The notes under the pieces are model-generated. The model saw only the letters and a program-made list of their open reading frames with translations, was not told the DNA's origin and did no database searches. This document shows positions 15,593-41,803 of a DNA stretch of 41,987 bases, one piece after another. The stretch is from NCBI GenBank assembly GCA_016207605.1, contig JACQPJ010000042.1, forward strand, positions 1 to 41,987. The letters run 5' to 3'. The first letter of the stretch is position 1. Each line of letters opens with the position of its first letter. Source of the DNA: Elusimicrobiota bacterium. Lineage in GTDB: Bacteria > Elusimicrobiota > Elusimicrobia > UBA1565 > UBA9628. The position numbers were made by a program, and so were the translations under genes.

Positions 15593-17527
15593 ATGTGCGG
15601 CATCTGCGGGGTCGTCTACGGGGACGCTCGGACGCCGGATCGGGCGGCGCTGAAGGCCGCCAACGACCTCATCGCCCATCGCGGCCCGGACGACGAGGGG
15701 CTCCTCGTCGACGGGCCCGCGGGCCTGGCCATGCGCCGCCTGGCCATCATCGACCTGAGCACGGGCCACCAGCCGCTCTCCTACGACGACGGGCGTCTCT
15801 GGATCGTCCTCAACGGCGAGATTTACAACTACCGGGAGCTGCGCGCGGAGCTGGAGGGCCGCGGGCACCGCTTCGCGACCAAGACCGACACCGAGGTCGT
15901 CCTGGCGCTCTACCGCGACCTGGGCCCGCGCTGCGTCGAGCGCCTGCGCGGCATGTTCGCCTTCGCGGTCTGGGACAAGCCCCGTCGGCGCCTCTTCATT
16001 GCCCGCGACCGCATCGGCAAGAAGCCGCTGATCTACGCCGAACGGCCGGCCGGCACGCTGGTTTTTGCCTCGGAACTCCGCTGTCTTTTTGCCCTCGATC
16101 CCAGCTTGTCCCGCGAGACGGACCCCGTCGCCGTGGACATGTATCTTTCCTTGCAGTATATTCCGTCCCCCAAGACGGTTTATAAATCCGTCAAAAAACT
16201 TCCGCCCGGCCACACCCTCACCTGGGAGAACGGCAGGACGACGGTGGAACGCTACTGGAACCTGCCTTTAGGAAAACCGCCGATCACCACGGACGTCGCA
16301 GAAGCGAAGTCCTTGCTTCGTGAAAAGCTGACGGAATCCGTGCGCCTGCGCATGATCTCGGACGTCCCTTTAGGCGCGTTTTTATCCGGCGGCCTGGACT
16401 CCTCCGTGATCACGGCGCTGATGAGCGGGCTCTCCTCCAAGCCGGTGAGGACGTTTTCCATCGGCTTCGAAGAGGCGCGCTTCTCCGAGACGCATTACGC
16501 GCGCCTGGTGGCCGAGCGCTGGAAGACCGATCACACGGAGTTCACGGTCAAGCCCGAGATGGCCGACGTCCTGCCTCGGCTCGCCTGGCACTACGGCGAG
16601 CCCTACGCCGACGCCTCGGCCTTGCCCACCTACTGCGTCGCGCGCGAGACGCGCAAGTTCGTGACCGTCGCCTTGAACGGCGACGGCGGCGACGAGAACT
16701 TCGCCGGCTACGTGCGCTACTTCGCCATGAAGGCCGCTCGTTTGGCCGACGCCTTGCCGGGACCCGCTCTGCGCGCGCTCAAGGCGGGCGCGGAGCTCCT
16801 GCCGGAGTGGGACGCCCCGCACGGGACCTTGTGGCGCGCCAAGCGCTTCCTGCGCTCGGCCGTGTTCAACGACCTGCCCGGCCGCCACCTCAGGATGATC
16901 GGCTACTTCGCCGAGGACGAGAAGCCAGGCCTCTACTCCCCGGAGTTTATGAAAGCGCTGGGCGCGGAGCTGGGCTCGGCCAAGGGCTATCTCGCCGCCG
17001 CCTTCGCCGCCTGCGAGGGCGAGGACTTCGTCAACCGCCTTCTCTACGTGGACTTTAAGACCTACCTCCCCGAGTGCCTGATGGCCAAGGTGGACGTCGC
17101 GACGATGGCCTGCTCGCTGGAGGGCCGCTCGCCCCTGCTCGACCACGAGTTCGTCGAGCTGGCCTACCGCCTGCCCGGGGACTGGAAGCTCAAGGGTCTG
17201 CGCGGCCACAAATGGATCATGAAGGAGGCCTTCGGCGATCTTCTCCCGGCGCCCATCCTCCGCCGCGGCAAGATGGGCTTCGGCATCCCGCTGGGCTCCT
17301 GGTTTCGCGGTCCGCTCAAGGGCTACTGGGAGGAGCACGTCCTCTCGCGCGAGGCCCTCGGCCGCGGCTGGTTTGCGGAGGAAGGTTTGCGCCGCCTGTG
17401 GCGCGAGCACCAGGGTGGCCGCCGCGACCACGGCTACCGCCTCTGGGCGCTCCTGATGCTCGAGCTCTGGCACCGCCACGCCGACGGCGCCGGCGCGCGT
17501 GCGGTTCAAGGGCCCACTTTTCCCTAG
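15593..17527 (+). CDS. asnB: Asparagine synthase (glutamine-hydrolysing)
   Basis: A 644-residue two-domain amidotransferase. The N-terminal nucleophile C2 is exposed after Met removal (MCGICG), NGEIYNY at 74-80 binds glutamine, and SGGLDSS at 265-271 is the ATP pyrophosphatase loop. Both halves are complete. It makes asparagine from aspartate, glutamine and ATP, or, like many paralogues in polysaccharide loci, amidates another carboxylate such as a uronic acid. Its location between two glycan operons makes the second option possible but unproven. The ATG is fixed by the need for Cys at position 2. Confidence 0.9.
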   Translation: MCGICGVVYGDARTPDRAALKAANDLIAHRGPDDEGLLVDGPAGLAMRRLAIIDLSTGHQPLSYDDGRLWIVLNGEIYNYRELRAELEGRGHRFATKTDTEVVLALYRDLGPRCVERLRGMFAFAVWDKPRRRLFIARDRIGKKPLIYAERPAGTLVFASELRCLFALDPSLSRETDPVAVDMYLSLQYIPSPKTVYKSVKKLPPGHTLTWENGRTTVERYWNLPLGKPPITTDVAEAKSLLREKLTESVRLRMISDVPLGAFLSGGLDSSVITALMSGLSSKPVRTFSIGFEEARFSETHYARLVAERWKTDHTEFTVKPEMADVLPRLAWHYGEPYADASALPTYCVARETRKFVTVALNGDGGDENFAGYVRYFAMKAARLADALPGPALRALKAGAELLPEWDAPHGTLWRAKRFLRSAVFNDLPGRHLRMIGYFAEDEKPGLYSPEFMKALGAELGSAKGYLAAAFAACEGEDFVNRLLYVDFKTYLPECLMAKVDVATMACSLEGRSPLLDHEFVELAYRLPGDWKLKGLRGHKWIMKEAFGDLLPAPILRRGKMGFGIPLGSWFRGPLKGYWEEHVLSREALGRGWFAEEGLRRLWREHQGGRRDHGYRLWALLMLELWHRHADGAGARAVQGPTFP

Positions 17528-17596
17528 GCCCTTTGGCCCTGCGCTTTAGGTTAAAAGGCCCATGCCGATTTTCGTGCCGCGTCCTATAATCTGTCT
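17521..17596 (+). promoter_or_regulatory. Paired GGNCC-box promoter element (site B), leaderless
   Basis: Box 1 is TAGGCCCTTTGGCCC (17525-17539). Box 2 is TAGGTTAAAAGGCCC (17547-17561), running into CATGC at 17561-17565. Exactly 19 bp later comes a perfect TATAAT (17585-17590), then 6 bp, then the GTG start at 17597. A start point 7 bp after the -10 would fall on the G of GTG, so the mRNA is predicted to be leaderless and the boxes to be DNA sites upstream of transcription. Box spacing is 22 bp, about two helical turns. Confidence 0.7.
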
Positions 17597-19366
17597 GTGC
17601 GCTTTATTCTGACGGCGTTTCTTTTTTCGTTGCCCGGGCCGCGGGTGGAGGCGATTCTTGGCGAGGGAGGGAGGCCGATGGAGTCGGCGGCGGAGGTGCA
17701 GAGCGTCCCTGTGGCCATCGTCGGTCTCGATCCTCACGTGGACTGGGCCTCGCACGAGGCGTCCGCGCTCATACCCATGTTCGCCGCCGGAGCCCACCCT
17801 CTTTTGGCTCCGGCTCTGTTTCGTCCCATGGTTGATGTCCTCAAGAGCGCGCCGGCGCATAGTCCCTCCGCGTCCGCGGGCAACGGCGCGATGGCCGGCG
17901 CGGCCGCAAACGGATCGCCGATGGCGGCGCAGACTGCGAAGCCGCGGAGTGCGAAGTCGGTTTTGGAGTCCGCCGCCGTTCGTCTGTCTCGTCCTCCGCT
18001 TGCCGGCGCGAAGGGCGGTGCCGGGCTCTCGGCGGCCGGCGAACTGGAGACGGTTTTTGACGGCGCGGATAACGCGACGGATGCAGCGGATCCAGTCGCA
18101 AGGCCCGACGATTCGAGCCTTCCCGTCCAGCGTGCCGGCCTTCGCGGCCTTGGAGAGGCTGCACGAGGACTGGCGGCCTCAATCCTCGGGCGTCTCAGGC
18201 CGGCCGTTCCCCCGCCTCCTGCGTCGGGGCTTGCCGAGCCCGCCGTTTCGCAAGGCCGCCGTTCCCTCTACAGCGTTTCGTACGAGCGCACGGTAGATAT
18301 TTCGGCCCATGCTTCGGATTGGAGCAGCGTTTTGAAGCAATCCCTGGTTCATGTGAAGGCAATCGGCCATGACGGCAGGATGTATCTGCAAGATGAGCTG
18401 CTCGATCTCGTCGTCCTTGATCGAGACGGCCGCTTGCTGCACACAATTGAGGGCCCTGCGCTCTTCGGCGGCGTTGATGGAGCGGGCAATGTTTACGTCC
18501 CCAACCCCGACGATAAGACAGTACAGGTGTACGATGATAAGGGCGTACCTGCGTATTTAATCCAGTTCTCGGTGCGACCGGACGTTATGCGTGTTGACGA
18601 CCAAGGCCAGCTCTTTATCCAACAGTTCGATGATGAATACGATCCAAAGACGGCTGGTCCCGTGCTTGTTCTTGACCGAAAAGGAAAATTCATCGGGTCC
18701 ATGAAGCTGGAGGATGCATCGCGTCAGCATTGGATCATCGACTCGCGGGGCCACCTCTACGTCCATGAAATGGATTCTTCCAATCAAGTCGTCAATATGC
18801 GCGAGTATTCGGTCGCGCGCGGCGGCAACCAGCTCTTGCGCGAACTTGCGTTTGACGTCGACAAGTTCATAAGCCCCGTATTTGCCGTTGATCGCGGGGG
18901 CCGCGTCAACCTGGTCAGCAACCTTGATACGTTTTTCGTGCTGACGCCTCAAGGGCTGCCCATGGCCGAAATGCGGCTGCGAAACGGCGAGGTGGACGGA
19001 CCGATGTTCGATGGCGCCGGAAATATTTATCTCATCGAGTCCCGCGGGAGGGTGCATGTCTTGCAGGGCGATTTTATGGATGATGGGAGCCTGCTGGACG
19101 AAGTTGTCGGCGCGATGGTCAGCGGCTTCTTGGACCAGGCAGCTGCCGCGCAAATCATGACGAGTTCTCCTCCGGCCGACGCGGTCGAGCGCCAAACCGT
19201 GCGCATGGCCATCAAGCTTCTTGCGGTGCCCACGCTGCGCAAGCGGGTCGCCGTGGAAATCCGACGCTGCATAGACGCTTCCGGGCGCATTGACTATCAG
19301 GCCCTCCGGCAAAAACTAGAGGCGAGGGTCGGGCCGCTGTCCGCGCTCGGGATAGACATCACCTAA
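17597..19366 (+). CDS. Exported protein with NHL/beta-propeller-like repeats
   Basis: A 589-residue protein starting with GTG. A signal peptide is clear (RFILTAFLFSLPG core, likely cut after VEA at residue 19). Residues about 20-200 are Ala/Pro/Ser-rich and low in complexity, with AAGAHPLLAPALFRP resembling the linkers of the exported proteins at 33811 and 33109. From about residue 250 to 500 repeated segments such as GAGNVYVPNPDDKTVQVYDD, DSRGHLYVHEMD and GAGNIYLIESRGRVHVL suggest an NHL-type beta-propeller, probably for binding rather than catalysis. A helical tail follows. GC content is lower than in the sugar genes. Function unknown; periplasmic or cell-surface location is inferred from the signal peptide. 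Confidence 0.75.
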   Translation: MRFILTAFLFSLPGPRVEAILGEGGRPMESAAEVQSVPVAIVGLDPHVDWASHEASALIPMFAAGAHPLLAPALFRPMVDVLKSAPAHSPSASAGNGAMAGAAANGSPMAAQTAKPRSAKSVLESAAVRLSRPPLAGAKGGAGLSAAGELETVFDGADNATDAADPVARPDDSSLPVQRAGLRGLGEAARGLAASILGRLRPAVPPPPASGLAEPAVSQGRRSLYSVSYERTVDISAHASDWSSVLKQSLVHVKAIGHDGRMYLQDELLDLVVLDRDGRLLHTIEGPALFGGVDGAGNVYVPNPDDKTVQVYDDKGVPAYLIQFSVRPDVMRVDDQGQLFIQQFDDEYDPKTAGPVLVLDRKGKFIGSMKLEDASRQHWIIDSRGHLYVHEMDSSNQVVNMREYSVARGGNQLLRELAFDVDKFISPVFAVDRGGRVNLVSNLDTFFVLTPQGLPMAEMRLRNGEVDGPMFDGAGNIYLIESRGRVHVLQGDFMDDGSLLDEVVGAMVSGFLDQAAAAQIMTSSPPADAVERQTVRMAIKLLAVPTLRKRVAVEIRRCIDASGRIDYQALRQKLEARVGPLSALGIDIT

Positions 19367-32312: not shown

Positions 32313-33711
32313 TCCGTTTTAGAGGCGGCTTGGAGAATATCGTTCAGTCTCTCCAGCAGTGCGTTTTCGTCCGGCATCCTCAGTACAATCGGCATGTTCC
32401 ATAACCAGGGGGGATATGACTCCAACAACTCCTTTATCTTATCGGAGTTCCCCAGACCCCTATTTGTCTCGATCAAGAGCTGGTACATGCCTAGGACCGC
32501 GGCGAGGTTGGCGTTCATGTGATAGGAGACATAGCCAACGTCAAACACGTTCTTGGGAGCATGAATTTTGATGGCCGAGTGATATTCCGCAGGCGCATTT
32601 TCCTGGAGCCAATTCCACCGCTTCCCGGAATTAGGTCTTCGTGAAAACCAGCGCATATATTCCGCGATGATTCCGTAGAGGATGTCTTCCGATTGCGCGG
32701 ATACATGGGCAGGATATTGTCTCCATGAGGCAACTAGTTTTAGTCTGGCGCTGACGACATCTTTGGTCGTTATGAGAGATCGGGCGAGTTCCAGCACCTC
32801 CGCCGGCTCTTGAGGGATTCTCCATTCCGATGGGCGTTTGTACCAGAGGCGGGATGGGAGACCTCGCCAAACGGAGAGACTATCTTCATAATCCAGGCTC
32901 CAATTGACCTTCGGAACATTGTTTGTAGGGATGGAAATGTCGGGGAATACGGCGATCGCGGGGCCCAGGCGATCCAGCAGGGCGAAGCCCTCGTTTCTTG
33001 TCGCGGCGCGGTGGACGGTGAACTCTTCGCGCTGGATCGCGGCGTCATCTTCCGGGAGAAGGGCGCCGCGATAAAGGTCCTCAACGGGTTCCGGCAGCAG
33101 AACGGCGGTTATGACGCGGCCGCGTTGCCGGCCAGGCCGACCTCGGCGGAGACGGGCATATCGCCGCTTCTTCGCTCCTCTGCGTCGAGACCGTCGAAGT
33201 TGACGGCACCCGGGAGCGCCGCTGCCTCGTACGTTTGCGTCTGCGCGGCCTCGTCGGCTGATTCGCGCGGCGGTTCGGCGGAGCCGAGCACCTTGGTCGC
33301 GGAGGCGGCTGCCCGCTGGAGGGGCGCCGCGGTCGAATGAACCGCGGCTTTTCCATGGGCCGCGGCCGAGGGCGCGTTGGAGGGCCCGCCCATCGCCCGG
33401 TCAAACCGCGCCGGCCGCGCCGTCGGTTTCAACAGAGGAGACGCGACCGGCAGCGCAATGGCCGGGATCAGAGCTGCGGCGGAAAGAAATGATGCGTTCG
33501 CAAGAGGAGCATTCTGCTCGGATAGGCCCGTCAGCGGCGCGGCCAGAGACACCAGATCGACTTTGAAGCCCTGCGCTTCAGCCGCGATTTCCCCCTTGGG
33601 AGTTCCCGCGACGTCGCCCGGCCCCGCCAGCGCCGCGGGGGCGAGAACGGATTGAATCAGCGCGCCGCCCAACAACGCGCTGCCCATGCGTGAAGCGAAT
33701 CGGCGTTTCAC
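32309..33711 (-). pseudogene. Exported Ala-rich protein gene broken by a single frameshift near 33110-33125
   Basis: The first part (33711 down to 33109) begins with GTG and gives 200 residues: a strong signal peptide (RMGSALLGGALIQSVLAPAA, cut after ALA), then an Ala/Pro-rich stretch. It ends at TAA (33111-33109). My hand translation of the adjacent frame continues without stop from about 33120 to 32309 as a natural-looking sequence (VITAVLLPEPVEDLYRG, then FALLDRLGPAIAVFPDIS, and so on for about 270 residues). Loss of one base near GCGTCATAA would restore a single protein of about 470 residues. It is a real frameshift, a sequencing error, or programmed -1 shifting. No domain is recognised in the C-terminal part. 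GC is lower than in the glycan genes. The stop overlaps the convergent flavoprotein stop. Confidence 0.6.
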
Positions 33712-33790
33712 AAGGTTATTTTGGGGCGAATTCTCCTCAATCCACCCGGGTCTTTGGACCTATGCCGCGGGGCCAAAAGACCTATATCCC
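33712..33790 (-). promoter_or_regulatory. Paired GGNCC-box promoter element (site C), leaderless
   Basis: Read on the minus strand: box 1 TAGGTCTTTTGGCCC (from 33784), box 2 TAGGTCCAAAGACCC (from 33762), 22 bp apart. A CGGGT lies where the other copies have CATGC (33748-33744), then 20 bp, a -10-like CAAAAT (33723-33718), 6 bp, and GTG at 33711. GGATT after the box is shared with site D. The -10 is weaker than in site B. Confidence 0.6.
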
Positions 33791-33810: not shown

Positions 33811-34797
33811 CTAGCGGAGATAGTGGATGAGGATATCGCCCATCAGCACGCCGCTGAACCCCGCGAAGTAGACGGTTGTCGGCGCGCCGTCTTGTCCGAG
33901 TCCATACAGGTTGCCGTCCGAGTTGACGCGCACGGCGATGAACCCCTGTTCGGGATCGTCGGCCATCAGCCGGAAAGTCCAGGCGGGGTAAAGCCTCCTC
34001 CGGTCGAAGTGGCGGATCAACTCCTCCCCGATCATGCCCAGCCTGTTCCCCTGTTGGTCGAGGGCGTAAGCGCTCCAGCGCGCATGGCTGACGCCGCTTC
34101 CCGTCGCGGCGAAAAGTGCCGGCCGAACGAATTCCAGGGCGCGGACCAGACGGGGGAATCTCAGCGTGAACGTGACCGGTCCGGCCGCGTCCTTTTGCGT
34201 CAGGAGGTTCGGACGGTCCTCGGCCAGAGGGACCACGGCCTTGCCCTCGTACTCGCATTGGGCGCTGACGATGCAGAGTCTGGACCCCGGCGTATGATGG
34301 ACGGCTTGAATACCCGCCCGTTCCAAGATCTCCGAGGCGGGCACGGGCCCCGCGGACGCGTCCACGGCGTTGAGGTTGAGCCGTCCCTCCTGATCGAACG
34401 CCTCGCGGAAGGCCGCATGCAGGTCTTTTGCCGTGTTTTGAAGGGCCAGGCGGGAGACTTGGTGCAGCACATCCATGCCGGAGGCGGACGGCGCGGCCCG
34501 GCGCGCGGGCTGGAGGAGTTTGACGGCGGCGTTCAAGGCGGCGGGCGCTGCCAGCGGGAGGCCGACGGCGGTGGGCGGGAGGGAGCCGTTGGGGGCCAGG
34601 AGCCCTTGATGCGAGCTCTGGTCGGGCAGCGCGGACAGAGGGGACAGCACGGTCTCGAAGCCGCGGAATAATTCGACATCCTTTGGCAAAGAGAAGTCTC
34701 TGATTGATAAAACGGCCCGTGCCGCGGGAGCAAAGAGGCCATGGAGCAGCACCAAGCCGATCGCCGAGCGCCCGGCGCGGAAGGGAGTCGTTGCCAC
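33811..34797 (-). CDS. Exported protein of unknown function
   Basis: A 328-residue protein starting with GTG. The signal peptide is RSAIGLVLLHGLFAPAARA, cut after ARA. The mature N-terminus has an Ala/Pro/Leu-rich linker (LPLAAPAALNAAVKLLQPAR) like that of the proteins at 17597 and 33711. A helical region (VLHQVSRLALQNTAKDLHAA) is followed by a beta-rich C-terminal domain of about 170 residues (TFTLRFPRLVRALEF, WTFRLMADDPEQGFIAVRVN, GDILIHYLR) without recognised family. Two cysteines (CIVSAQC) may form a disulfide. Lower GC than its glycan neighbours. Function unknown; a periplasmic or surface location is inferred. Confidence 0.7.
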   Translation of the reverse strand: MATTPFRAGRSAIGLVLLHGLFAPAARAVLSIRDFSLPKDVELFRGFETVLSPLSALPDQSSHQGLLAPNGSLPPTAVGLPLAAPAALNAAVKLLQPARRAAPSASGMDVLHQVSRLALQNTAKDLHAAFREAFDQEGRLNLNAVDASAGPVPASEILERAGIQAVHHTPGSRLCIVSAQCEYEGKAVVPLAEDRPNLLTQKDAAGPVTFTLRFPRLVRALEFVRPALFAATGSGVSHARWSAYALDQQGNRLGMIGEELIRHFDRRRLYPAWTFRLMADDPEQGFIAVRVNSDGNLYGLGQDGAPTTVYFAGFSGVLMGDILIHYLR

Positions 34798-34900
34798 GCC
34801 CGTATTTTAGCGCAACCGCCTGGAATCCGCATGAGCCTTTTGGCCCAAGGAACCTAGGTCGAAAGGTCCACAGGGCTTGTAGGCCGAAAGGCCCATGGCG
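34798..34900 (-). promoter_or_regulatory. GGNCC-box promoter element with three boxes (site D), leaderless
   Basis: On the minus strand three boxes occur: GGGCCTTTCGGCCTA, GGACCTTTCGACCTAGG and GGGCCAAAAGGCTC, the last running into CATGC (34833-34829). Exactly 19 bp follow to TAAAAT (34809-34804), then 6 bp, then GTG at 34797. Geometry is identical to site B, including a GATT just after the CATGC box. The predicted start point falls on the GTG. Confidence 0.7.
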
Positions 34901-37426: not shown

Positions 37427-40033
37427 ATGGCTGACGGCGGCAGAGCGGTCCCTCGCCAGATTCGGCCGCAGGCCGAGGCCTTCGCGCACAAGGCGATCAC
37501 GCTGTGGCTGCCCGTTCTCTACTTCCTGATCTCATCGCTGTTCTTCCTGCGCACCTACGATTCCGCGCAGGTCAAGATCACGATGATGCAGATGGGCGGC
37601 CTGGGCCTGCTGACCTTGTGGCTCTGCCGCCTGGCCGAGGCGGGGCGCGCGGCCTTCAGCCGGGACGACCTGGTCTGTCTGTCGCCCTTCCTGGCCTACG
37701 CCGTCGTCGGCGTCGCCTCCTTCCTGCACGCGCCCTACCGGATGGTGAGCACGGACTTCTTCCTGCGCCACATGTTCTACATGAGCGTGGCGCTCATCGT
37801 CGTCTACGAGCTCGACGAGGCGTCCGTCCAGAGCCTCCTGCGCTGGCTCATTCGGGCGGCCTGGGTCGCGGTGGGCTACGGCACGCTCCAGTTCGTGGAC
37901 ACGCGCTGGTTCCCGCCCGGCATCGGGATGGGCATCGACCCCTTCATCTGGCGCGGCGCCTTCGGGCCGCGCGTGTTCTCTACCTACGGCAACCCGAACT
38001 TCTACGGGGACTTTCTCGTCATCGTCTTTCCGATCCTCCTCACTCAGTATCTCAAGTCCCGGCGCTGGAGCCTCCTCCTGCTCATGGCCCTGCTCCTGCT
38101 CAACCTGGCCGCGACGGCCACCAAGGGGGCGTGGCTGGGATTCGCCATGGTCTGCGTGCTCTTCGGCGCGGTCGCGTTGGCCTGCTTCAAGGAGCGCAGC
38201 CGCCCTTATCGCGCGAAGATCCTCGGCGCCGCGGCCTTCGCCGCCCTCGTCCTGATCGGCTACACGGCCAAGGAGCTGCAGGGCCGCATGGTCTCGGTCA
38301 ATTTCCGCCTCTTCACCTGGGAGGCGACCTGGGAGATGATCCGGACCCAGCCCTGGCGCGGCTCCGGACTAGGGGCCTTCCCGCCGCTGTACCCGTCCTT
38401 CCGGCGGCCGCCGATCTTCCATGTCGAGGGCAAGCACAACACCGAGACCGACCACGCCGAGGACGAGTATCTCGAGCAGTGGCTCGACAACGGCATCCTC
38501 GGCTTCGGGATCTTCCTCTGGCTGGTGGTCAGCACGCTGGTCATCGGCTTGCGCTCCCTGGGGCAGCTCACGACCACGCTGTCGCTCAAGGACGGCCGTC
38601 CCCCGCCGCGCGCCTACGACTTGGCGGGGCTCTTCGTGTCCTTTGCCGGCATGCTCGGCCACAACTTCTTCGACGTCAGCCTGCGCTTCGTCTCCTCCGG
38701 GGTCTACCTGGGCCTGCTCTCCGGGCTGATCGTCAACGTCTCGCGCGGCCGCGCGCTCTACGAGCTCCACGGCCGCGCCGCGGCCGCGCCTGCGGACACG
38801 GAGCCGGGGGCCGGCCTCTGGAGGACGCTCTCCGATTTCCTGATCTGGCCCGCGCGCCTGGCCGCGATCGCGGGCGTGCTCTACCTGGTCTTTTTCAAGG
38901 ACTGGTCCGTTCTCCAGCGCGCCGCGGGGTTGGGCGGCATGGCCGGCGAGTTCGCCTCCCTCCTGGGGCCGCTCTCGCGCCTCTCTCTGGGCGGGGAGGT
39001 CCTGCAGTGGTGGCTCGCCTGGGGCGTGTTCGCCGGCTGCGTGGGAGGCCTGGGCTACGCCGTGATCCGGCTCTGCCTGCTCTCCGAGAACCCGGCGGTG
39101 CCGCTGATCGTCCTGGCCATGCTCGCGCCCCTGCGCCTCTTCTGGGGCTACTTCAAGGCCGACATGCACCACAATGTCGCGATCGCCTACTCCAAGGAGC
39201 GCCAGTACGACGCGGCCATCGCCAACTATCTCATCGTCAACAAGCTCAATCCGGACTTCGTCATGGCGAAGTACTTTCTGGGGAACGTGTTCAACGACCG
39301 CTTCGACATGCGCAGGACGCACAACCCCGCCTGGGGCGACTCCGGCGACGCCCCCTGGGACGACTACGACCGCGCCGTGCACTGGTACAACGAGGTGCGC
39401 CGGCGCGCGCCGAACTACGTCCAGATGCACCACCAGGTCGGCAACCTCCACCTGCGCCGCGCGCAGTGGGCGATGGATCCCAACAACCATCGGCCACCGG
39501 AGGAAGCCCAGAAATACCTGGACCTGGCCATGAACCGCTACCGCCTCTACCGACAGATCGACCCGGTCTTTGCGCCCAACTTCTACCGCATGGGTCAGAT
39601 CCACATGATGCGCAAGCAGCACGACGAGGCCGCCCGGGACTATGCCGACCTCATCGCGGCCAAGGCCTGCGCGGTGGAGCCCGGCCTCCTGGCCAACGAC
39701 GCCATGCGCCGCACCATTTTCTCCTACCAGCGCTACGTCCAGGAGGATGGGCGCTGGGTCCACCGCCACGCCATCCCCGAGGAGCCCCGGGAGGCGGCCG
39801 AGGCGTACCGGAACCTGGCCGACGCCCAGTTCCTGGGCGGGCATCTCCCCGAGGCGGAGCGCTCCTACAAGAAGTCCCTCTCCTTTGAGCCGGCCTTCGA
39901 CGTCGCCAAGAGGAACCTGGAGGTCGTCTACCGCCAGGCGCAGGCGCAGGGCCGCCTGCGCCAGGTCCCGCCGCCCGCCAAGGCGCCAGGTCCCGGGGAG
40001 CCGCCCTACACCGGCTACGAGGTCGCGCCCTAG
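37427..40033 (+). CDS. O-antigen ligase/polymerase (Wzy/WaaL-like) with C-terminal TPR domain
   Basis: An 868-residue protein. Residues about 25-450 hold 10-12 membrane segments of the O-antigen ligase/polymerase family; the large periplasmic loop with FTWEATWEMIRTQPWRGSGL (GxG and Arg-rich) and HAEDEYLEQWLDNGILGFGI is the family hallmark. Two further membrane segments follow near 480-570. The last 290 residues contain tetratricopeptide-like repeats (YDAAIANYLIVNKLNPDF at about 594, and EAERSYKKSLSFEPAFDVAK near the end). The TPR part, on the periplasmic side if topology is standard, may bind chain or partner proteins. It probably polymerises or ligates the glycan made by these operons. Confidence 0.8.
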   Translation: MADGGRAVPRQIRPQAEAFAHKAITLWLPVLYFLISSLFFLRTYDSAQVKITMMQMGGLGLLTLWLCRLAEAGRAAFSRDDLVCLSPFLAYAVVGVASFLHAPYRMVSTDFFLRHMFYMSVALIVVYELDEASVQSLLRWLIRAAWVAVGYGTLQFVDTRWFPPGIGMGIDPFIWRGAFGPRVFSTYGNPNFYGDFLVIVFPILLTQYLKSRRWSLLLLMALLLLNLAATATKGAWLGFAMVCVLFGAVALACFKERSRPYRAKILGAAAFAALVLIGYTAKELQGRMVSVNFRLFTWEATWEMIRTQPWRGSGLGAFPPLYPSFRRPPIFHVEGKHNTETDHAEDEYLEQWLDNGILGFGIFLWLVVSTLVIGLRSLGQLTTTLSLKDGRPPPRAYDLAGLFVSFAGMLGHNFFDVSLRFVSSGVYLGLLSGLIVNVSRGRALYELHGRAAAAPADTEPGAGLWRTLSDFLIWPARLAAIAGVLYLVFFKDWSVLQRAAGLGGMAGEFASLLGPLSRLSLGGEVLQWWLAWGVFAGCVGGLGYAVIRLCLLSENPAVPLIVLAMLAPLRLFWGYFKADMHHNVAIAYSKERQYDAAIANYLIVNKLNPDFVMAKYFLGNVFNDRFDMRRTHNPAWGDSGDAPWDDYDRAVHWYNEVRRRAPNYVQMHHQVGNLHLRRAQWAMDPNNHRPPEEAQKYLDLAMNRYRLYRQIDPVFAPNFYRMGQIHMMRKQHDEAARDYADLIAAKACAVEPGLLANDAMRRTIFSYQRYVQEDGRWVHRHAIPEEPREAAEAYRNLADAQFLGGHLPEAERSYKKSLSFEPAFDVAKRNLEVVYRQAQAQGRLRQVPPPAKAPGPGEPPYTGYEVAP

Positions 40034-41064: not shown

Positions 41065-41146
41065 CAGCCTAGGACTTTCGGCCTATCTCCTGATAGGCCG
41101 TAGGACCCATGCAGAAGCTTGGACCGCATTCCATACTTCAAGCGCC
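41065..41146 (+). promoter_or_regulatory. Paired GGNCC-box promoter element (site E)
   Basis: Box 1 CCTAGGACTTTCGGCCTA (41068-41085) and box 2 TAGGCCGTAGGACCC (41094-41108), about 24 bp apart, run into CATGC at 41108-41112. Exactly 19 bp follow to a -10-like CATACT (41132-41137), and the ATG at 41147 lies 9 bp further. The hexamer is weak but its position matches sites B and D exactly. Confidence 0.6.
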
Positions 41147-41803
41147 ATGATGACAATCACAGCGCTTGCCATGTTGACGCTCGCGGGGACCAGCCATGCA
41201 GATTCTCCGGTCACCTCTATTAAGTTCCATCGAGCTTATGCGGACGTCCCCATGGTGGCCAAGGCCCTCGAGAAGGGCGTCTTGGACAAGAAGATGGCGG
41301 ATTTTCTCTCCTCGCCGCAAAACCCCATCGGTCAGAAGGCCGCGGTCATCAACGCGCTGGGCTGGAGCGTCAGCGGCAACGGGGAGCCGCGCGACGCGCG
41401 AGCAAAGCAGAACGCGATTCTTTATGCGAGCTTTGGGTCGCAAGGTCCGCGTAAAAATCTAAACACGGACGAGATCTTTTCCTTGGGCTATCTGCTCCTC
41501 ATGGATTTATATTCCGATCCGCAAAATGCCCTCCCCTGGCTGGAGAAAGCCTATCAAGAACGCCCAAGCAGTCTGACCATCAGAATGATCTACGCCCTGG
41601 GCCAGGCCCAATACCATGTTCAGACGGGCGACTATTGCAAAGCTTGGCAAACCGTGGATTCTTCGACCCGAGGAAATAATCTCAGGAAAGACCTGCACCC
41701 CGCGGCTGTTAAGATCATCGTGGACCATATGCGGGGGTACAAACCCTATTGTTCCGAACCACTTAAGAGCCTCAAATCGAAAGGGCCGGGAATCTTGATC
41801 TGA
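41147..41803 (+). CDS. Small exported protein of unknown function
   Basis: A 218-residue protein. The signal peptide (MTITALAMLTLAGTSHA) would be cut after SHA, giving a mature start DSPVTS. The remainder is mostly helical, with SLGYLLLMDLYSDPQNALPW and LTIRMIYALGQAQYHVQTGD resembling TPR/Sel1-like helical pairs. Two cysteines (YCKAW and PYCSE) may form a disulfide in the periplasm. Two ATGs stand in tandem (41147 and 41150), so either may be used. Lower GC than the adjacent glycosyltransferase. No family recognised. Confidence 0.7.
   Translation: MMTITALAMLTLAGTSHADSPVTSIKFHRAYADVPMVAKALEKGVLDKKMADFLSSPQNPIGQKAAVINALGWSVSGNGEPRDARAKQNAILYASFGSQGPRKNLNTDEIFSLGYLLLMDLYSDPQNALPWLEKAYQERPSSLTIRMIYALGQAQYHVQTGDYCKAWQTVDSSTRGNNLRKDLHPAAVKIIVDHMRGYKPYCSEPLKSLKSKGPGILI

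Follow-up and report, generated by a model that had tools for sequence, protein, structure and literature searches.

A twin-palindrome promoter element upstream of exported-protein genes in Elusimicrobia, and a candidate response regulator for it

The element in the window

The window considered here is the whole 41,987-nt contig JACQPJ010000042.1 of an Elusimicrobiota bacterium (assembly GCA_016207605.1; hereafter the source genome, a draft that is 75% complete). Four of its open reading frames (ORFs) are each preceded by a copy of one element, at sites B, C, D and E (Table 1). The element consists of two palindromes of the form TAGGYC-N4-GRCCYA, about 24 bp apart from centre to centre, and a -10-like box that follows them. 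The four copies can be aligned with one another, in agreement with the first-pass annotation of the window, which had grouped the same four sites as a shared promoter class for secreted-protein genes. Between the downstream palindrome and a -10 of the form TAnnnT there are 24-25 bp; counted from where the right arm (GRCC) ends, the distance is 25 bp in C and 24 bp in the other three sites. The same palindrome directly adjoins a degenerate -35 (TTG or TGG), with a spacer of 17-18 bp. Translation would start with GTG 6 bp past the -10 in B, C and D, and with ATG at 9 bp in E. The N-terminus of the product behind site E is signal-peptide-like by eye, yet it fails the hydrophobicity rule described below (no K or R); its one Pfam match is below the cut-off (ANAPC3, E 0.0026).

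Table 1. Positions of the element copies, their target ORFs and two response regulators (window coordinates unless a genome or contig is named)
Feature	Position	Strand	Remarks
Site B, twin palindrome	17525..17562	+	left TAGGCCCTTTGGCCCT 17525-17540, right arm 17547-17560 plus CA
Site B, -10 TATAAT	17585..17590	+	24 bp past right arm
Target of B, 589 aa ORF	17597..19366	+	GTG 6 bp past -10; signal-peptide-like start; Pfam: none at E<=0.1
Site C, twin palindrome	33749..33784	-	left 33784-33769, right 33762-33749
Site C, -10 CAAAAT	33718..33723	-	25 bp past right arm
Target of C, 200 aa ORF	33109..33711	-	GTG 6 bp past -10; signal-peptide-like start; Pfam: none at E<=0.1
Site D, twin palindrome	34834..34870	-	left 34870-34855, right 34847-34834
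Third arm (GGGCCTTTCGGCC), upstream of site D	34882..34894	-	
Site D, -10 TAAAAT	34804..34809	-	24 bp past right arm
Target of D, 328 aa ORF	33811..34797	-	GTG 6 bp past -10; signal-peptide-like start; Pfam: none at E<=0.1
Site E, twin palindrome	41070..41107	+	left 41070-41085, right 41094-41107
Site E, -10 CATACT	41132..41137	+	24 bp past right arm
Target of E, 218 aa ORF	41147..41803	+	ATG 9 bp past -10
Fifth core copy, near contig start	158..207		no -10 at 24-25 bp on either side
RR-A (NarL/FixJ family, NarL/DevR-type)	E. minutum 1292616-1293290; source genome C15:43656-44321, C40:10221-10874		
RR-B, second NarL-type response regulator	E. minutum (G034) 328400-329047		close homologues only in family f2 among loci examined

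Statistical support for the element and its spacing

Two models of the element were used. The first, a sequence-only model of the four window sites, gave 52 matches in the source genome at E<=10, both strands being counted and the core being nearly symmetric. The second, together with a position weight matrix, was built from 30 aligned rows, which represent 28 sites (two in both orientations), some of them counted again in later tests; 21 rows (19 sites) came from the source genome and 9 from loci found by an exact core pattern. The 30-row model gave 76 matches in the source genome at E<=0.1.

The core was also searched for by its arms alone, two arms 9-13 bp apart, leaving the -10 unused so as to avoid training on it, with third-order Markov sequences as controls. 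At threshold 16, there were 21 cores in 419,115 bp of the source genome against 0, 0 and 0 in three controls. The sample combined the window with 20 stretches of contigs in which matches had been found beforehand, so that this density is not genome-wide. In Elusimicrobium minutum (E. minutum), 13 cores were found in 1.6 Mb against 0 and 0 in two controls. Lowering the threshold to 15 gave 31 cores in the source genome and 6, 3 and 2 in the controls.

The distance to the -10 is constrained as well. At threshold 16, 13 of the 21 source-genome cores have a TAnnnT box 24 or 25 bp outside an arm, as do 12 of the 13 in E. minutum, where 11 boxes stand at exactly 24 bp. At other offsets (5-69 bp, minus 22-27) the mean number of such boxes is 0.34 and 0.98, respectively, and the maximum 3 and 4. 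The fixed spacing recognized at first pass, 19 or 20 bp from the end of a CATGC-like box, is this same distance of 24 or 25 bp counted from the right arm. Some cores have a -10-like box 24-25 bp away on both sides, for example C44:4772 (locus L048) and C40:604 (L050). At these two places apparently divergent promoters would share one operator and its two dimers.

Promoter anatomy

The site alignment gives TAnAAT as the -10 consensus. Directly after the right arm, and 17-18 bp before the -10, comes the -35 slot, whose three positions read T (51 of 69 promoter rows), T or G (64) and G (47), the rows including some opposite-strand readings of single sites. Taking the start of the -10 box as -12 puts the centres of the palindromes near -42.5 and -66.5. 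The promoter thus described appears to be of the sigma70 type, its weak -35 adjoined by an activator site, and not a new sigma promoter. The CATGC-like box, earlier placed at the -35 position, is the edge of the right palindrome run together with the degenerate -35 and no box of its own. A variant of the bipartite pattern suggested along with it (wider gap, no -10 part) had 0 matches in the source genome, and real sites vary in their arms.

A start codon lies 5-7 bp past the -10 in 10 of 21 source-genome promoter rows, as against 5 of 36 rows of other genomes, where it usually follows at 15-59 bp (29 of 36). Many source-genome mRNAs of this kind would therefore be leaderless. The six-base step from -10 to GTG, offered earlier as part of the promoter class, is thus a local feature, frequent in some lineages and not in others.

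Genes behind the element

Signal peptides were scored by a crude in-house rule based on hydrophobicity. It allows any start codon within its window and so has a high background (33% in the source genome, 41% in E. minutum), and it passes at least one false case, a RuvA-like ORF lying on the opposite side of E. minutum site 553660. In the source and other genomes, targets were taken from promoters scoring at least 36 with at least 200 downstream bases, targets and background being read in the same 150-base window. The source-genome background was a gene call based on GC content at third codon positions (GC3), of at least 120 aa, on stretches picked because matches lie on their contigs. On this basis a signal-peptide-like start was found in 20 of 23 source-genome targets against 100 of 303 background genes (binomial p 1.3e-7), and one with no further membrane segment in 17 of 23 against 58 of 303. 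Of the three misses, site E and C22:10985 are signal-peptide-like by eye, and the third has no 60-aa ORF in the window searched. Among targets in other genomes the rule passed 34 of 36, and none of the 34 has a further membrane segment; this set is limited to the strongest matches, whose loci were fetched, and two E. minutum sites in it are counted again in the E. minutum test.

In E. minutum a looser threshold gave 17 cores, 14 of them with TAnnnT at 24-25 bp. Thirteen of these 14 lead a signal-peptide-like ORF, compared with 633 of 1544 background ORFs (p 8e-5; 170-base window for targets, 150 for background). Among the three cores lacking TAnnnT at that distance, one does so. The prediction that matches would precede signal-peptide genes more often than expected is thus borne out in all three sets.

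A Pfam scan of 54 targets matched 17 families, of which only the ankyrin families (4 members) were matched more than once; the single-member matches include M14 and S8 peptidases, a metallo-beta-lactamase, an outer-membrane barrel and others. Most targets, by our estimate about 40 of the 54, match no Pfam family. Since 58 of 303 genes in the source-genome sample look secreted by this crude rule, the proteins behind the element are only some of those exported, and they are mostly orphans. In genome G055, three successive sites on contig C11 (22458, 23871 and 25336; locus L112, also L057) are about 1.4 kb apart, and two of them (6488 and 7901 in L057) precede clearly related exported proteins; the genes form a tandem family, every member of which has retained a separate operator.

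Distribution of the element

An exact core pattern, run over 84,980 species genomes, matched 10 stretches in 9 genomes. Nine of the stretches carry the name Elusimicrobia, Elusimicrobium, Elusimicrobiaceae or Elusimicrobiales in their titles. The tenth is titled 'uncultured bacterium', and across the element its two sites have the same sequence as sites of G055, a genome of the same class. Of 60 genomes of the phylum, 26 belong to the window's class and 34 to other classes; at E<=1e-4 the model matched 23 of the former and none of the latter. Seven chosen other-class genomes had no match even at E<=1. At that level the three negatives of the class gave weak partial matches only in G030 (best E 0.002) and G032 (0.016), and none in G053. 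In a larger set of 117 class genomes the element was found in 94 at E<=1e-3; of the 23 negatives three (G030, G093 and G095) were assigned by difference. Viral contigs had 0 exact element matches, which disfavours carriage by phage. Carriers include a genome of 70% GC (the source genome) and one of 40% GC (the gut species E. minutum). A 16S search of the source genome found none.

Candidate regulator

Comparison of the sequences indicates that the element is very probably a class-wide DNA operator, belonging to an activator-dependent sigma70-type promoter for exported proteins. The earlier suggestion of an alternative sigma factor or an activator would then hold in its activator half, as a twin palindrome upstream of the -35 slot fits an activator; its sigma half does not agree with the TAnAAT box and the degenerate TTG/TGG.

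A crude helix-turn-helix (HTH) screen of E. minutum returned two NarL-type response regulators, RR-A and RR-B, among other HTH proteins. We favour RR-A as the operator's regulator with a probability of roughly 0.6, judging from its distribution and from the promoter geometry of its family. RR-A has a receiver domain (PF00072, 3.3e-30) followed by a GerE HTH domain (PF00196, 1.4e-15), the NarL/FixJ (LuxR-type) architecture, and its nearest solved relatives are VraR, DevR, ChrA and NarL. Adjoining it in E. minutum are a sensor kinase gene (dCache, below the Pfam cut-off, then HAMP-HisKA-HATPase) and a REC-HisKA-HATPase gene; ORFs of matching size adjoin RR-A at loci L280, L285 and L287. The neighbours also include Flp/TadE-like genes, labelled by sequence reading and not by Pfam. 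Orthologues are 62-85% identical in the source genome (two copies) and the positive genomes examined, and the recognition helix reads KT[IV]KNHLN at every one of the 34 fetched loci, representing 31 distinct genes, that have a homologue of at least 60% identity. As to copy number, the source genome and 12 surveyed congeners have two matches each, and genomes of the gut family f2 one each.

The distribution of RR-A follows that of the element closely. In the 60-genome set, GerE matches at E<1e-14 occur in 23 of 23 element-positive class genomes; of the element-negatives, G053 has none, G032 one at 1.3e-8 and G030 a strong one. Among the 117 class genomes RR-A is found in 97 at E<=1e-60. Of these, 93 have the element and 4 lack it (G108, 69% identity; G030, 65%; G063, 50%; G086, 44%). 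Thus 93 of 94 element-positive genomes have it (Fisher p 5e-17 for the association, uncorrected for kinship), and 19 of the 20 genomes lacking it at that cut-off also lack the element. In 21 of the 23 element-negatives RR-A is either not found or represented by a homologue only 44-50% identical. Counted by family, all 9 families with the element have close homologues (at least 60% identity), and none of the 6 without it does (p 2e-4).

Alternative explanations

Several observations weigh against RR-A. Its co-occurrence with the element tracks deep clades, so few independent events lie behind it. Genome G142 (79% complete) has one weak element match (E 1.7e-4), RR-A not being found there at E<=1e-60, and G108 and G030 carry RR-A with no element at E<=1e-3, G030 having the partial matches already mentioned. 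No element at score 20 was seen in the fetched response-regulator loci, and there is no sign that RR-A regulates itself. The half-site GGYC differs from the GGGAC of DevR, and VraR resembles RR-A more than DevR does. The HTH proteins of E. minutum also include TetR-like, LexA-like, XRE/S24 and sigma-like ones, whereas the regulators followed across genomes were RR-A, RR-B, CRP/FNR, a MarR protein and, by counts, XRE. It is possible, if somewhat unlikely, that the same operator and mechanism serve another transcription factor, a TetR-, LexA- or XRE-type or unrecognised regulator of the positive families. In its favour, the case for RR-A is made from co-occurrence and analogy, and the crude screen lists further HTH proteins. 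The specific candidates tried do not follow the element. The CRP/FNR domain PF13545 has 0 matches in the site-rich gut genomes G019, G042, G044 and G055, and a MarR protein (E. minutum 862095) occurs in only 21 of 117 class genomes. RR-B, which we take to be NreC-like with an NreC-like helix, is 59-73% identical within family f2, at most about 40% in other loci examined, and was not found in the source genome, at its 75% completeness. For XRE/CI proteins as a class, per-genome counts do not track the element, which is weak evidence drawn from counts and a reading of three E. minutum proteins.

The readings that dispense with an activator fare worse. That the conserved box is the -35 of an alternative sigma factor is very improbable: conserved bases do extend into the -35 slot, but most of the conserved positions are upstream of -36 and belong to the two palindromes with their spacing of about 24 bp, and the slot itself and the -10 are as described above. 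As for sigma-54, it is reported absent from E. minutum (PMC3162934), a species that has the element. An RNA hairpin or leader (riboswitch, attenuator) in the mRNA is less credible still. The arms are complementary, and site E folds better than its shuffles (z -4.8), as does D when the third arm is included (z -3.3; -1.1 without it), but B and C fold no better than shuffles (z 0.06 and 0.10) and the -10 lies downstream of the arms. Covariation between the arms is 0.166 against a shuffle mean of 0.142, a value reached by 54 of 500 shuffles, and at two variable pairs 9 and 10 of 30 sequences are unpaired; such slight covariation speaks for DNA rather than RNA. There is no Rfam match to the window at the gathering score. 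The single listed match lies elsewhere, at 38521-38548, below threshold (E 0.32), and is to a togavirus frameshift element, almost certainly by chance. Equally hard to credit is a mobile or spreading repeat that stands near genes by happenstance; tens of matches in the source genome would suit it, but conservation is confined to a short core, and the -10 spacing and the class of target are constrained across distant genomes.

Proposed mechanism and significance

Two dimers of one regulator, most likely RR-A, would bind the two adjacent 16-bp palindromes, presumably cooperatively. The downstream dimer, placed against the poor -35 of a sigma70-type promoter, would recruit RNA polymerase to a -10 at fixed distance, that is, by class II activation, and a dispersed regulon of exported proteins would be switched on. 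RR-A itself may be driven by the membrane sensor kinase (dCache-like, HAMP) and the receiver-kinase encoded just upstream. A broader and more doubtful proposal is a class-wide program in which an extracellular signal passes from the dCache-like kinase through the receiver-kinase to RR-A, and from there both to the neighbouring Flp/TadE-like pilus genes and, by way of the twin palindrome, to a rapidly changing set of orphan exported proteins, lineage-specific ones joining a single ancient circuit just by gaining the operator.

A 40-bp operator shared by a 70% GC genome and a 40% GC one makes a regulon readable from sequence alone. It picks out exported proteins mostly without a Pfam family, and its candidate regulator can be tested in cultured E. 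minutum, which would offer a route to studying how the largely uncultured Elusimicrobia deal with their surroundings. No description of an Elusimicrobia regulon, operator or RR-A-type regulator of this kind was found in the open-access literature among the matches listed (the E. minutum genome paper being outside this scope), in keeping with the first-pass view that no described regulator matches the site.

Comparison with known systems

Response regulators that act as class II activators from twin sites are a known kind of system. In promoters controlled by DevR, as PMC3029386 describes them, the binding sites are set close together and the proximal site overlaps the -35, with cooperative binding and activation. 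The element resembles such DevR/DosR-type promoters in its palindrome around N4 and its two close sites, the proximal one at the -35 (here abutting the -35 slot), and this shared geometry is the analogy that points to RR-A. The proteins are also alike, RR-A matching DevR at E 5e-30 with KTxKN common to both recognition helices, although VraR is closer by sequence (E 3e-40). However, the half-site is GGYC/GRCC here and not GGGAC (the DevR consensus being TTSGGGACTWWAGTCCCSAA, a string listed for one paper, PMC2275270), the targets are exported proteins and the phylum is different.

The NreC-type site is TAGGG-N4-CCCTA, and the element shares with it a TAGG...CCTA palindrome around N4. Unlike what would be expected of an NreC system, RR-B is not found in the f3 loci examined, nor, as noted, in the site-rich source genome. 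A review (PMC8139620) describes the NreC-type site as a 'GC rich palindromic region'.

The arrangement is also like that of lambda CI, an unrelated protein family. There, two dimers about 24 bp apart at OR1 and OR2, the proximal one centred near -42, activate PRM; here, two sites are separated by the same distance, with the proximal one likewise near -42.

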